Source of the DNA: Zooshikella ganghwensis DSM 15267
GTDB lineage: Bacteria; Pseudomonadota; Gammaproteobacteria; Pseudomonadales; Zooshikellaceae
Reading direction: 5' to 3'
DNA: 35,401 nucleotides
NCBI RefSeq assembly: GCF_000428585.1
Contig: NZ_AUAF01000039.1
Span: 1 to 35,401, forward strand
Shown here: positions 16,921 to 22,403 of the stretch, piece after piece
How positions within the stretch are numbered: position 1 is the first letter of the stretch
How the letters are laid out: each line of letters starts with the position of its first letter
Notes under the pieces: model-generated
What the model saw: only the letters and a program-made list of their open reading frames with translations
Told to the model about the DNA's origin: nothing
Database searches by the model: none
Made by a program: the position numbers and the translations under genes

Positions 16921-17667
16921 ATGCAGTATCTATGTCCCTCTTTTGCCACACTTGCAAAGCAACAACAACTTATCCACTTTAATGACTTTTGGGACTTAAC
17001 CACACCTTGGTTTGAAGCTCCCAACCACCGACGTAATGGTTGGAGTGGTGTCATTGAGTACACATTAACAGACTCAAATGGGCATCCTCACCGCTACTTT
17101 ATTAAGCGACAAGAAAATCACAATACGCGTAGTTTACGTCACCCGTTTTCTGGCGAGCCAACCTATCGTCGCGAATTGATTAGCATTCTGAAGCTTCAGG
17201 CACTCAATGTCCCTACTTTAGATGTTGTGTATTACCAGGAACGAAAAGAAAAAAACAACCATCAAGCTATTTTAATTTCTAAAGCCCTTGAGAATTATCA
17301 AAGTTTTGGCGAGTGGTACAAAAGCAAACCAGATGAACATCAGCTAGCTACAGCTTTTAAGCGGCTTGCAGCCATTATTAAACAGCTTCATCACCATAAA
17401 CTCGCACACTACTGCTTATACCCTAATCATGTTTTCATTAAATCTGATGAAAAAAATACATTTGATATTCGTCTAATTGACTTAGAAAAAGTCCGTTATA
17501 CCCCGATTTCTGCCCAAGGCCGCTATAAAGATTTAGATTGTTTCTTGCGTCACGCCTCGAGTTTTTCACCCAGTCACTTAAAAATGTTTTTCGATGAGTA
17601 TTTCAAAAACTTATCGAAATTTTCACATATTCAGCACAAGCTCATACAGCAGCTATCCCAACAGTAA
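16921..17667 (+). CDS. InaA/WaaP-like kinase-fold protein, copy 1
   Basis: A 248-residue member of the lipopolysaccharide-kinase (Kdo/WaaP) superfamily, InaA branch. WFEAPNHRRNGWSGV and YFIKRQENHNTRS give the nucleotide-binding Lys62, and PTYRRELISI supplies the helix-C Glu. The catalytic loop reads HYCLYPNHVFI, with Cys where the catalytic Asp of WaaP (HRDCY) sits. LIDLEKVR gives the metal-binding Asp. Activity is therefore uncertain; InaA-like proteins generally share this H-x-C-LYP pattern. The location is cytoplasmic, possibly membrane-peripheral. It starts 8 bases after the VanZ-like stop. Confidence 0.82.
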   Translation: MQYLCPSFATLAKQQQLIHFNDFWDLTTPWFEAPNHRRNGWSGVIEYTLTDSNGHPHRYFIKRQENHNTRSLRHPFSGEPTYRRELISILKLQALNVPTLDVVYYQERKEKNNHQAILISKALENYQSFGEWYKSKPDEHQLATAFKRLAAIIKQLHHHKLAHYCLYPNHVFIKSDEKNTFDIRLIDLEKVRYTPISAQGRYKDLDCFLRHASSFSPSHLKMFFDEYFKNLSKFSHIQHKLIQQLSQQ

Positions 17668-17804: not shown

Positions 17805-18563
17805 ATGAATCACTTAAGCCGTTTAAGTCACTTTATTGTTGCCTCACAAGCAGTTGCGGAGCTGTTAAAGCAAAATCAACTGAGTAGTTTTGAGCAGGTA
17901 TGGGAGGCTAAACTCCCATGGTTTGAACCACCCAATCAACGACGAAATGGTTGGAGTGGTGTCAGTGAACATCAGTTACATACGGCTTCCGGTAATCACA
18001 TCAACATATTTATAAAACGCCAAGAAAATCATAATACCTTTAGCATTCAACATCCTATTACTGGCATTCCTACTTTTTACCGCGAATTTAATAACTTAAA
18101 ACGACTTTATCATCTTGGTATTGGTGCCCCTCAACCCCTCCTCTACGCAGAACGCACTCACCATGGCAAAAAACAAGCGGTATTAATCACCAAAGCACTC
18201 GATGGCTACTGCAGTTTAGAAAACTGGTATCAACGTTACTCAAAAGCAACATTAACAACTCGTGAAAAATTACTTAGCTCTCTGGCAATATGCTTACGAA
18301 ACTTTCACAACCATCATTTAGTTCATAACTGTCTTTATCCAAAACATATTTTTGTCACTAATGCTGAAAATCCCGCATCTTTTCAAATCTACTTAATAGA
18401 TTTAGAAAAAACCAAACGCGTATTCAATACAAAAAAACACTGCAATCATGACTTACAACGTTTTATTCGACACGCAAACATTATTCCTGAACATGATATA
18501 CAGTATTTTATTGACCACTACCAGCACGTGGATAAGCGCCAGCACTACCTTTGTGCCAGTTAA
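17805..18563 (+). CDS. InaA/WaaP-like kinase-fold protein, copy 2
   Basis: A 252-residue paralogue of the preceding gene, sharing the whole domain order: PWFEPPNQRRNGWSGVSE, FIKRQENHNTFSIQHP (ATP-site Lys), PTFYREFNNLKRL, HNCLYPKHIFV (Cys in place of the catalytic Asp) and LIDLEKTK. The two look like an old tandem duplication because they differ throughout. Unlike copy 1, the leader is 137 bases long and contains a hairpin, so it may be expressed separately. The substrate is unknown; lipid A core or another surface glycan is the family-based guess. Confidence 0.82.
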   Translation: MNHLSRLSHFIVASQAVAELLKQNQLSSFEQVWEAKLPWFEPPNQRRNGWSGVSEHQLHTASGNHINIFIKRQENHNTFSIQHPITGIPTFYREFNNLKRLYHLGIGAPQPLLYAERTHHGKKQAVLITKALDGYCSLENWYQRYSKATLTTREKLLSSLAICLRNFHNHHLVHNCLYPKHIFVTNAENPASFQIYLIDLEKTKRVFNTKKHCNHDLQRFIRHANIIPEHDIQYFIDHYQHVDKRQHYLCAS

Positions 18564-18704: not shown

Positions 18705-19283
18705 TTATAATAATATTTTACGTATATGGGATTGAAGAAAAGGCACAACATCAGCCTCAAACCATGGATTTTTTCTTAACCATAACGTATTTCGAGGGGA
18801 TGGGTGAGGGAGTGGCAAGTAATCAGGTAAGCATTGTTGCCAATGACTAACACGAGCTGTTAGTGTTTTATGCTGATCTTGCAAGTAGTATTGCTGCGCA
18901 TATTGCCCTACTAATAAAGTAAACTGAATATTGGGCATTAAGGGACGGAGTAAGGGATGCCACTTAGGAGCACATTCAGGACGAGGAGGAAGATCACCAC
19001 TTTTACCTTTTCCCGGATAACATAAACCAACAGGTATAATGGCGATGTTACTTTCATCGTAAAACTGTTCACGATCCAAATCCAGCCACATATGTAACCG
19101 ATCGCCACTAGGATCATTCCACGGAATACCTGTAGCATGAACACGCGTTCCAGGAGCTTGTCCCACAATTAAAATCTTTGCAGTTTCGGTTGCACGCAAC
19201 ACGGGGTTAGCTCCCAGTGGCAAGTGCTCCTTGCAGATATTACACTGTCTGATGTCTGCCAATAAGTCTTTAAGTGAGATCAT
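18705..19283 (-). CDS. Uracil-DNA glycosylase superfamily protein, likely Fe-S type
   Basis: A 192-residue protein of the UDG superfamily, which removes damaged bases from DNA. Motif 1 reads VGQAPGTRVHATGIPWNDPSGDRL and the C-terminal motif LPHPSPRN, which holds the His contacting the flipped base. Cys14, Cys17, Cys88 and Cys104 have spacing like the 4Fe-4S ligands of family 4 enzymes, so a cluster is probable. The annotation for this subgroup is usually just 'UDG family protein'. True uracil specificity is not shown. It is separate from arfA upstream, with 118 bases between. Confidence 0.82.
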   Translation of the reverse strand: MISLKDLLADIRQCNICKEHLPLGANPVLRATETAKILIVGQAPGTRVHATGIPWNDPSGDRLHMWLDLDREQFYDESNIAIIPVGLCYPGKGKSGDLPPRPECAPKWHPLLRPLMPNIQFTLLVGQYAQQYYLQDQHKTLTARVSHWQQCLPDYLPLPHPSPRNTLWLRKNPWFEADVVPFLQSHIRKILL

Positions 19284-19401
19284 CGCTCATTGCATCCAAT
19301 ACTAGGGCCTGTAAACACTATTTGAATGATATGATGTAGGAATTTGAGCGGGAGTCAATGACTGCAGAAGGCGCTTAATGAGAAGAGGATATACGGAAGG
19401 A

Positions 19402-19605
19402 TCAAGCAGTTTTAACGTGAATAGCGCGTTTAAGGTGTACCATAAAAAAAGCCTCCGAGCATGAATACTTGGAGGCTTTTTTAAAGGCTTTGCGACTGTA
19501 TGAACCTTTACCTTTTTTCGGCTTTTCTGTCTGGCTACGGAACTGTCGCTGCATCACTAACTGTTTACCCAGAGCTCGACGCTTAGGTTTTGTTGAAGTT
19601 ACCAT
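19402..19605 (-). CDS. arfA: Alternative ribosome-rescue factor A, with internal terminator
   Basis: The 67-codon frame matches ArfA, which recruits RF2 to free ribosomes stalled on non-stop mRNA when trans-translation fails. The core QFRSQTEKPKKGKGSYSRK (residues 21-39) corresponds to the KGKGSY segment that threads into the empty mRNA channel. Codons 42-54 encode a strong hairpin with a T-run. The normal transcript would therefore end inside the gene and yield a truncated, tmRNA-tagged product unless trans-translation is blocked. This is the known feedback on arfA. Residues after about 54 are poorly conserved and may rarely be made. GGAAG lies about 10 bases upstream of the ATG. Confidence 0.85.
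   Translation of the reverse strand: MVTSTKPKRRALGKQLVMQRQFRSQTEKPKKGKGSYSRKAFKKASKYSCSEAFFMVHLKRAIHVKTA
19444..19482 (-). terminator. Intrinsic terminator inside arfA
   Basis: On the minus strand, A-rich GCCTCC and GGAGGC (19451-19456 with 19471-19476) plus six flanking A-T pairs form a 12-bp stem with a 14-base loop, followed by seven T. It falls within codons 42-54 of arfA, about 40 bases before the frame's own stop. The shape fits both Rho-independent termination and RNase III cleavage, as described for E. coli arfA. Confidence 0.85.
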
Positions 19606-19726
19606 AATAGTTTATCTTCCTGGTTTCCATTTTAAAACAATTGATCCCACAAGTTATTCGCTGCGATGCATATGCTGCAAGCTGCGAACTTGGGGCAGCA
19701 TCATAATAAATTTTTACACCAAACGC

Positions 19727-19753
19727 AAAAAAGCAGGCCAGTCACTGACCTGC
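19727..19753 (-). terminator. Intrinsic terminator of the small conserved gene
   Basis: GCAGG (19733-19737) pairs with CCTGC (19749-19753), and the inner CAG pairs with CTG after one mismatch. Six T follow on the minus strand (complement of 19727-19732). It lies about 75 bases past the stop of the minus-strand gene at 19827. Confidence 0.7.
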
Positions 19754-19826
19754 TAAAGGCAAGGGTAATGTACATCAGGGAAGATAAACTCAAAGTCCCT
19801 CGTTAAGGAGGGAAATAGTAATGTCG

Positions 19827-20618: not shown

Positions 20619-22292
20619 TTAATTACCAAGCAACCAACTTTCAGGAATTTCATAAAAACCATAAAAAGTAATTTCTTGAGTTTTACCCTTTAGCTGCATG
20701 GTATAGCTTGGCCACTCATGGGTATCGATCTCCAAAATTGATAAAAATGCACTGGAAATAATAATAGGGTATCCTGCCACCTTACTTTGCTGTTCCAGTC
20801 TCGCGGCAATATTCACATCATCACCAATTGCGCTGATAATTTGTGCCGCAGGTGGTCCCATAGTACCCACAATTACCCGCCCAAAATGCAAGCCTATGCC
20901 ACATGACAATGGTGCTAGCAACTCAGAAGACAGTACCGCATTAAGACGCTTCAATTTTTCCTGCATTAACGCGACACCTTTTAAGGCTTGCCGGCAAATA
21001 CGCACGTGTTTCTCTTCAGCTAAACCATACAATGCCATCAAGCCATCACCGGCAAACTGGGCATAATGCCCTTCAGTTTCATGCAATGCAGCAGTCATTT
21101 CCGCAAAAAACTGGTTCAAAATAAACAGCACATCATAGGGTAAACGTTGCTCTCCTAAACGCGTTGAATCTCGAAGATCTAAAAAGAGTATTGCAACTTC
21201 TCGTTCATGCCCATCCAGCCCACCCGGCCGTTTACTTGCAGAAGCCCTTACATCAGGAGATAAAAGCGGCTGGACTGAAATGGTGCCTGTTGGATATAAC
21301 TGACATGCCAAACGAGTATGTGCTGGTGCACTAATTTTATCCAAAGCCTGCTTTTCAACTGCATTAGGTGGTGCTAAAGCAGCTTCACCAGCAGTAATTA
21401 ATACCCGACAAGTAGTGCACCTTCCTCTACCGCCACAAATAGCAGCATGAGGAATACCATGCTGTCTAAAGGTATCTAATAGTGAGGTATTTCGAAAAAG
21501 ACGTATGTTTTGGCCATTGGCTAAACATAACTGACCGACCGTTTGCTGCCGTAACCAAAAGTAATTTAGCCCTCGCACTATTAGCGGTAATAGCAAAATA
21601 AACGCATAAACTATCCAAGCATAAGAAGTATAGTTTTCAACCGCAGTAAAATAGTCACCCGTTAAGTTGGCTTGAGCTTTTATTGTTGCAATAAGCGTTT
21701 CATCGAGCATTCTCACTAACTGACGTCCGCTTGCTATAAACCCAGCAAGTGCTAAAACAGGTATTAATACTGCAACCCCAAGCCAGTAACTTTGTTGACC
21801 TTGATACCAACGATTAACTCGTAACCAATAATGAATACCCAAACAACCATGATACCAAACGAGCAGTAAAGTCACTGCCTGCCAAAGGCCTTTATCTGGC
21901 GCTAAATACCAGTAAATCAGTTGAATAGAATAATAGTCATGGTCTACCGCAAATCTATCCACTAAAACATCTGTCGCCAACACATGCTGTACCAACATGA
22001 GCGGTATCAGCAAGCCTGAAACAATCTGCCGCCACTCCCACCCAGCAATACCCAGCATATTTCTTCGGGCTAAAACCCATATAGCATTTACCAAGTGGGT
22101 TAAAACGGCTACTAACATAAGCATTTTGCCTACCGGGGTATTCCAAGGTGCCAGTAACCATTTTCGGACAGCATTTTGCCAATGAATGTCAAACAACCCC
22201 ATGCTGTGATTAACTAAGTGCATCAACACAAATGCAAATAACATCAGTCCAGAATAAAGCCTTAAGTTTGCCCTTAAATTCTTCGGCTGCAA
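20619..22292 (-). CDS. Membrane-ferredoxin-adenylate/guanylate cyclase fusion
   Basis: A 557-residue signalling enzyme in three parts. Residues 1-250 hold about six membrane spans with conserved His (HLVNHSMGLFD, LVQHVLATD, WYHGCLGIHYWLR), recalling haem-binding cytochrome b-like domains. Residues about 250-345 are a 2Fe-2S ferredoxin domain (CGGRGRCTTCR...ACQLYP). Residues about 360-550 are a class III cyclase: FLDLRDSTRLG and YAQFAGDGLMALYG give the two metal Asp, and DDVNIAARLE gives the Asn-Arg pair. All catalytic residues are present. TTG 22292 is chosen because GGAG lies 8 bases upstream; another TTG at 22328 is less likely. Redox control of cAMP synthesis is inferred. Confidence 0.88.
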   Translation of the reverse strand: MQPKNLRANLRLYSGLMLFAFVLMHLVNHSMGLFDIHWQNAVRKWLLAPWNTPVGKMLMLVAVLTHLVNAIWVLARRNMLGIAGWEWRQIVSGLLIPLMLVQHVLATDVLVDRFAVDHDYYSIQLIYWYLAPDKGLWQAVTLLLVWYHGCLGIHYWLRVNRWYQGQQSYWLGVAVLIPVLALAGFIASGRQLVRMLDETLIATIKAQANLTGDYFTAVENYTSYAWIVYAFILLLPLIVRGLNYFWLRQQTVGQLCLANGQNIRLFRNTSLLDTFRQHGIPHAAICGGRGRCTTCRVLITAGEAALAPPNAVEKQALDKISAPAHTRLACQLYPTGTISVQPLLSPDVRASASKRPGGLDGHEREVAILFLDLRDSTRLGEQRLPYDVLFILNQFFAEMTAALHETEGHYAQFAGDGLMALYGLAEEKHVRICRQALKGVALMQEKLKRLNAVLSSELLAPLSCGIGLHFGRVIVGTMGPPAAQIISAIGDDVNIAARLEQQSKVAGYPIIISSAFLSILEIDTHEWPSYTMQLKGKTQEITFYGFYEIPESWLLGN

Positions 22293-22320
22293 GTATCGAT
22301 CTCCGCAGTAGCATTTGAAG

Positions 22321-22403
22321 ACTCCCAAAGCGAAGAATTTTTAAGTGGAGCTAAGCTGGTCTGTTAAGACTAGCCCCACATAGAACCCTTCGTTTTGGGT
22401 ATA
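22321..22403. repeat. TATACCC repeat element, short copy D
   Basis: An 83-base element. The left arm ACTCCCAAAGCGAAGAATTT pairs with the right arm ending AACCCTTCGTTTTGGGTATA, and the symmetry extends inward through GTGGAGCT/AGCCCCAC. It lacks the interior of copies A-C and could fold into one long imperfect hairpin. It overlaps the leader of the minus-strand cyclase gene, 29-111 bases upstream of the chosen start. Confidence 0.65.

Follow-up and report, generated by a model that had tools for sequence, protein, structure and literature searches.

The window analysed here, a stretch of 35,401 nt from Zooshikella ganghwensis DSM 15267, contains a small minus-strand reading frame which, judged by its sequence, is arfA. 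The product matches the PF03889 (ArfA) profile over residues 16-40, scoring 33.4 bits where the cut-off is 25.5, and a profile search of the 5.8-Mb genome gave it as the sole PF03889 match. When the PDB was searched by sequence, the solved E. coli ArfA chains were the best matches (residues 15-40, best E 0.01); among the NCBIfam models, none matched the product at E up to 1. The basic KGKGSY core expected of an ArfA protein is present upstream of a hairpin that lies within the frame. The preliminary description had put the KGKGSYSRK element before this hairpin, and the codon numbers bear this out (31-39 vs. 42-54); it had also placed a 12-bp stem with seven T residues at codons 42-54 of a 67-codon arfA, which proved exact when counted from the ATG. 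The features of the locus are collected in Table 1.

Table 1. Features of the arfA locus (positions are those of the window).
Feature	Position	Strand	Basis
arfA reading frame, 67 codons, ATG at 19605, TGA ending at 19402	19402..19605	-	PF03889 match
KGKGSYSRK core, codons 31-39	19489..19515	-	translation; alignment to solved E. coli ArfA
Shine-Dalgarno-like AGGAAG, 10 nt 5' of ATG	19616..19621	-	read by eye
In-frame hairpin: 12 bp, then A.C mismatch and 4 bp, TTCA loop; codons 42-54	19445..19482	-	sequence, RNA folding, scan
Hairpin left arm AAAAAAGCCTCC	19482-19471	-	sequence
Hairpin loop AAGTATTCATGCTC	19470-19457	-	sequence
Hairpin right arm GGAGGCTTTTTT	19456-19445	-	sequence
T7 tract	19444..19450	-	sequence
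Read-through tail, codons 55-67 and stop	19402..19443	-	non-conserved vs. Z. harenae from codon 56
Candidate arfA promoter TTGCGT-17-TATGAT, weak -35	19700..19728	-	by eye; hexamers and spacing same in Z. harenae
Terminator-like hairpin 3' of upstream 102-aa gene	19732..19754	-	terminator scan; palindrome kept in Z. harenae
Candidate promoter of downstream uracil-DNA glycosylase gene, TTGACT-16-CATCAT	19331..19358	-	scan; TTGACT block kept in Z. harenae
Uracil-DNA glycosylase superfamily gene (PF03167), downstream of arfA	18705..19283	-	profile match

The terminator-like and promoter-like sites that flank arfA suggest that it is probably a single-gene unit. The hairpin behind the 102-aa gene would separate that gene from arfA, and the candidate arfA promoter follows it, unlisted in the promoter scans. 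On the other side, the glycosylase gene has a candidate promoter of its own, of a kind that chance alone would produce once in 600 nt. Farther away in the window, a minus-strand frame of 569 aa (20619-22328) joins a 2Fe-2S ferredoxin domain to an adenylate/guanylate cyclase domain, its first part looking by eye like membrane segments. The neighbouring plus-strand frames 16921-17667 and 17805-18563 appear similar to each other by eye; the latter has a match to the Kdo/WaaP lipopolysaccharide kinase family.

The folding controls clearly set the in-frame hairpin apart from chance. The 56-nt hairpin stretch folds at -22 kcal/mol (z -4.9), with 1 of 200 dinucleotide shuffles as good. As a peptide-preserving control, codons 38-57 were replaced by 5,000 synonymous recodings drawn with the window's own codon usage; the observed energy was -24.8, the recodings had a mean of -10.7 (sd 3.1) and a best value of -23.7, and none of them folded as well. 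A chance hairpin is ruled out by the shuffles and the recodings, and a hairpin dictated by the peptide is ruled out by the recodings. The T7 tract by itself is not rare, as it occurred in 1,179 of the same 5,000. A simple terminator scan with a loop limit of 3-8 nt left the hairpin unlisted, because its loop measures 14 nt, or 4 nt if one goes past the A.C mismatch and the four further pairs. Our own scan, which allows one mismatch, detected it as an 11-position stem with a 4-nt loop and the tail TTTTTTTA. The Rfam families gave zero matches in the window at the gathering threshold. The fact that the frame stays open past the hairpin is uninformative either way, because chance alone would favour it ((61/64)^12 = 0.56).

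A close relative of the gene is found in Zooshikella harenae (L012), with 79% identity over 67 residues, and its comparison with the window showed three zones. In codons 2-41, 24 of 120 nt differ, 15 codons being changed synonymously and 4 non-synonymously, thus indicating that the peptide is under selection. Codons 42-55 are identical at all 42 nt, so that the hairpin zone departs from the upstream part both in nucleotide differences (0/42 vs. 24/120, Fisher p 0.0006) and in the share of changed codons among degenerate ones with the same amino acid (0/13 vs. 15/35, p 0.004). Beyond the hairpin, in codons 56-67, the two genes disagree at 20 of 36 nt and at 10 of 12 amino acids. This pattern implies selection on the peptide as far as the hairpin and on the hairpin, with the read-through tail left free of it. 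In two species of one genus, it fits the prediction for a gene that ends at its terminator. Conservation at the letter level is not unique to the hairpin, which counts against over-reading a two-species comparison: no stretch shared letter for letter by the two loci is longer than one of 52 nt upstream of arfA (19744-19795). This stretch lies between the 102-aa gene and arfA and runs into the terminator-like hairpin there. It is possibly a 3'-UTR element or a small RNA; it has no Rfam match, and it is unrecognisable in the other genus of the family.

The genome carries tmRNA, with the tag ANDENYALAA, and genes for SmpB, RNase III, RF1 and RF2. Thus, tmRNA and SmpB, the partners that a trans-translation-controlled arfA would need, occur in the same genome as the gene. 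No third PF00472 protein was found in it beyond RF1 and RF2, so by PF00472 there is no ArfB. Taken together, the data make it very probable that arfA is a single-gene unit whose in-frame intrinsic terminator gives rise to a non-stop mRNA, and that the ArfA of 53-54 residues made from it is tagged by tmRNA and released if trans-translation fails. Observed here are the gene, its conserved hairpin and U-tract, the unconserved tail and, in the genome, tmRNA, SmpB and RF2, while termination at the U-tract, tagging, degradation and rescue activity are modelled on E. coli and B. subtilis. RNA polymerase would stop in the U-tract after codon 53 or 54, with the mRNA 3' end predicted near 19446-19444, thereby leaving the arfA message without a stop codon. 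Ribosomes would then run to the end of the message. As long as trans-translation works, tmRNA-SmpB would add the ANDENYALAA tag and the truncated ArfA would be destroyed. With trans-translation blocked or saturated, the 53-54-residue ArfA, bearing the whole conserved core, would be released and would recruit RF2, freeing stalled ribosomes.

This scheme follows the model of tagging, degradation and release on tmRNA failure that is described for E. coli arfA (PMC3989581, PMC8012679, PMC10107115). Both genes are small frames with a stable hairpin in the 3' coding part and a core before the hairpin; the non-stop product of about 53-55 residues and the dispensable tail of E. coli arfA are predicted for the window as well (PMC3989581, PMC8012679, PMC3989591). 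The earlier suggestion that the truncated product would be active gains support by analogy, as 53-54 residues are predicted here and the 53-55 N-terminal residues of E. coli ArfA are reported to retain full function (PMC3989591). The suggestion that the fail-safe logic is conserved is likewise supported, given the presence of tmRNA and SmpB and a two-species comparison that fits zone by zone. The systems also differ. The E. coli stem is described as mismatched and cut by RNase III, and the instability of its full-length protein is ascribed to a hydrophobic tail (PMC3989581, PMC13159725, PMC11721466), whereas the tails of the window (MVHLKRAIHVKTA) and of Z. harenae (MAEIDLRTTMKAA) are not strongly hydrophobic by eye. 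In comparison with E. coli-like loci, the Zooshikella stem is shorter and its tract is T7; in comparison with E. coli ArfA itself, the family match of the window product is limited to residues 16-40. A parallel is B. subtilis brfA, a rescue-factor gene of 71 sense codons whose stop codon is preceded by a rho-independent terminator and whose product of about 62 residues is under trans-translation control; disruption of its in-frame terminator is reported to abolish SmpB control (PMC6881298). The accounts of its origin diverge, a review calling it independently evolved (PMC8012679) and another paper homologous to ArfA (PMC11633108); we take it as an analogue.

The strongest alternative is RNase III cleavage of the hairpin, in place of termination, as the source of the non-stop message. 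Such cleavage has been mapped for E. coli arfA, whose stem is cut by this enzyme (PMC3989581); the E. coli stem-loop has in fact been described as terminator and RNase III site both (PMC10107115, PMC3989581). The RNase III gene is present in the genome, and with its A-U part the window hairpin reaches 16 pairs with one mismatch. However, the GC-rich part comprises only 6 pairs plus 4 past the mismatch, whereas the E. coli-like arfA loci (L050, L053, L055, L061, L066, L078) have stems of 16-19 positions in our own scan, even with the A-U extension uncounted. A review gives the arfA hairpin of P. aeruginosa, also a short one, as below the length of known RNase III substrates (PMC13159725). Moreover, a T7 tract is needed by a terminator and not by an RNase III site. 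The shortness of the stem thus favours termination over RNase III as the way in which the message becomes non-stop, and cleavage appears improbable.

We surveyed cellular arfA genes in overlapping sets of 37, 369, 390 and 197 genomes, which yielded 3, 7, 29 and 69 matches and, at one locus per genome, 101 loci; lineage labels were assigned in this analysis. Z. harenae L012, being the same place as L011, was uncounted, and L049, which falls under the Pfam cut-off (E 0.001), was removed, leaving 100 loci in all counts. By our own rule, an in-frame intrinsic terminator is present in 40 of the 100 arfA loci and in 4 of 204 control ORFs (open frames of at least 200 aa, not called genes). The excess is not explained by length, because the scanned stretch is shorter in arfA (median 62 nt, above 86 nt in 33/100) than in the controls (median 86 nt). 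Several of the 40 terminators have weak tracts such as TTCTTACT, and Fisher p-values across arfA rows are overstated because the rows are related. A hairpin of -15 kcal/mol or below occurs in 97/100 loci. For the 3' region, taken from the core to 50 nt beyond the stop codon here and for the viral copies below, z-scores were computed with mononucleotide shuffles; of the 99 loci that offered sufficient sequence, 91 had z of -2 or lower. The minimum-energy hairpin lies wholly before the stop codon in 59/100. In the other 41 (L083, L094, L103 and L116, for example), it spans the stop codon; termination after such a hairpin would leave the stop in the message, which could become non-stop solely through cleavage in the left arm. 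In a tree of the core (37 columns; 4 of 89 inner branches starred), the window and Z. harenae stand next to L022 and L023, two loci whose in-frame terminators carry T5 and T8, at a fork with support 0.

The fail-safe logic is known for ArfA genes generally, those of E. coli and its relatives included, and its terminator form is known too; Zooshikella adds a further clear example. Schaub et al. 2012 reportedly recognised the arfA hairpin of N. gonorrhoeae as an intrinsic terminator inside the frame that makes the mRNA non-stop, and are said to have found hairpins in about 83% of 431 arfA genes. Some later papers cite Schaub et al. 2012 for the conservation of hairpin control in arfA.

Viral contigs contain at least 15 arfA loci (L137 and L140-L153 included), 11 of them distinct after merging identical proteins, among which is an unannotated arfA of Pseudomonas phage pf16 (L137:541-693). 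In a Pfam check of 10 of the 11 distinct copies listed, all 10 were above the ArfA cut-off. Over the same 3' region, 7 of the 11 copies listed have no excess structure (z > -1), and 4 (L140, L144, L151, L152) reach z of -2 or lower, compared with 91/99 cellular loci; 10 of the 11 stop 2-15 residues past the SYxR(K/E) of the core. Viral copies without excess 3' structure are possibly free of trans-translation control, and their number among those listed is what would be expected if the hairpin served the host as a means of control and had no share in the function of the protein. A further match, in phage Y3, whose record is flagged UNVERIFIED, looks like the Pseudomonas-type chromosomal gene and could come from host DNA. 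ArfA has also been reported in a pelagiphage (PMC12753301).

These comparisons bear on another explanation, in which an ordinary 3' terminator overlaps the frame by accident, an upstream stop codon having been lost by drift with no regulatory meaning. The unconserved tail past the hairpin and the fact that about half of random frames stay open as long would agree with this. Nevertheless, the arrangement is kept in both Zooshikella species and recurs among arfA loci at a rate far from that of other ORFs (40/100 vs. 4/204). A stop codon upstream of the hairpin should also be easy to regain, and 7 of the 11 distinct viral copies listed, none of these 7 with excess structure, do stop shortly past the core. 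We therefore regard accidental overlap as very unlikely. Least credible of all is that the terminator serves plus-strand transcription and lies in arfA incidentally: the A-tract and T-tract are near-symmetric and would work both ways on paper, but the nearest plus-strand family-matched gene among those scanned, the kinase gene 17805-18563, stops about 880 nt short of the hairpin, and the minus-strand glycosylase gene lies in between.

The survey pointed to a further feature of arfA frames, a terminal Ala-Ala, found in 42 of 100 arfA loci (L043, L083, L094, L104, L106 and L116 are examples) vs. 2 of 162 control ORFs (p 2e-18, overstated since the rows are related). These ends resemble the end of the tmRNA tag, and the residue before Ala-Ala is L, I or M in 30/42. 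The penultimate Ala codon is GCG in 16 cases, GCC in 12, GCT in 8 and GCA in 6, and the last one GCT in 25, GCC in 14, GCG in 2 and GCA in 1. With all four Ala codons in use, it is the peptide end, more than the RNA, that seems to be kept. The Ala-Ala end is more frequent in loci without an in-frame terminator than in those with one (34/60 vs. 8/40, p 0.0004). A mutual exclusion of the two features was considered and dropped: supported branches allow only 3 independent pairs, and the distribution may be plain ancestry. On the tree, the trait requires at least 12 changes, only 3 of which are forced by supported branches.

We tentatively suggest that ArfA may be marked for destruction either way, by the Ala-Ala of the tmRNA tag if its message is non-stop, and by an encoded ssrA-like -(L/I/M)AA end if the stop codon is reached. 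The window has the read-through end -KTA and Z. harenae has -KAA, so Zooshikella is a weak case, at most suggestive, of both locks together. The literature on ArfA degrons and C-terminal ends that was open to our search makes no mention of an Ala-Ala end; subscription papers fell mostly outside that search, and novelty is thus unproven.

Within the family, PF03889 had no match in the three genomes of the other genus (0/3); arfA is absent there from the sequence after the 102-aa gene, and a KGKG-type motif was found in 0/6 loci. The difference between the genera may reflect either a gain in Zooshikella or a loss in the other genus. A third PF00472 match over the cut-off is present in 3/3 genomes of the other genus (L133, L134, L135) vs. 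0/2 of Zooshikella, and one of those three genomes has a fourth, weak match. A swap of ArfA for ArfB between the genera was considered and dropped, because L133, the one of the three proteins compared, is peptide chain release factor H (TIGR03072, 220.9 bits) and not ArfB.

In this work, the terminator version of the ArfA fail-safe is extended to Zooshikella, in a family whose other genus in the data set shows no arfA by PF03889 in three genomes. The two Zooshikella species offer a clean signature, with conservation at the protein level up to the hairpin, at the letter level inside it and none after it. This three-zone signature could serve in a search for other genes that are deliberately made from non-stop messages. 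Moreover, the genome-encoded ssrA-like end carried by many ArfA proteins is a testable, possible degradation signal.
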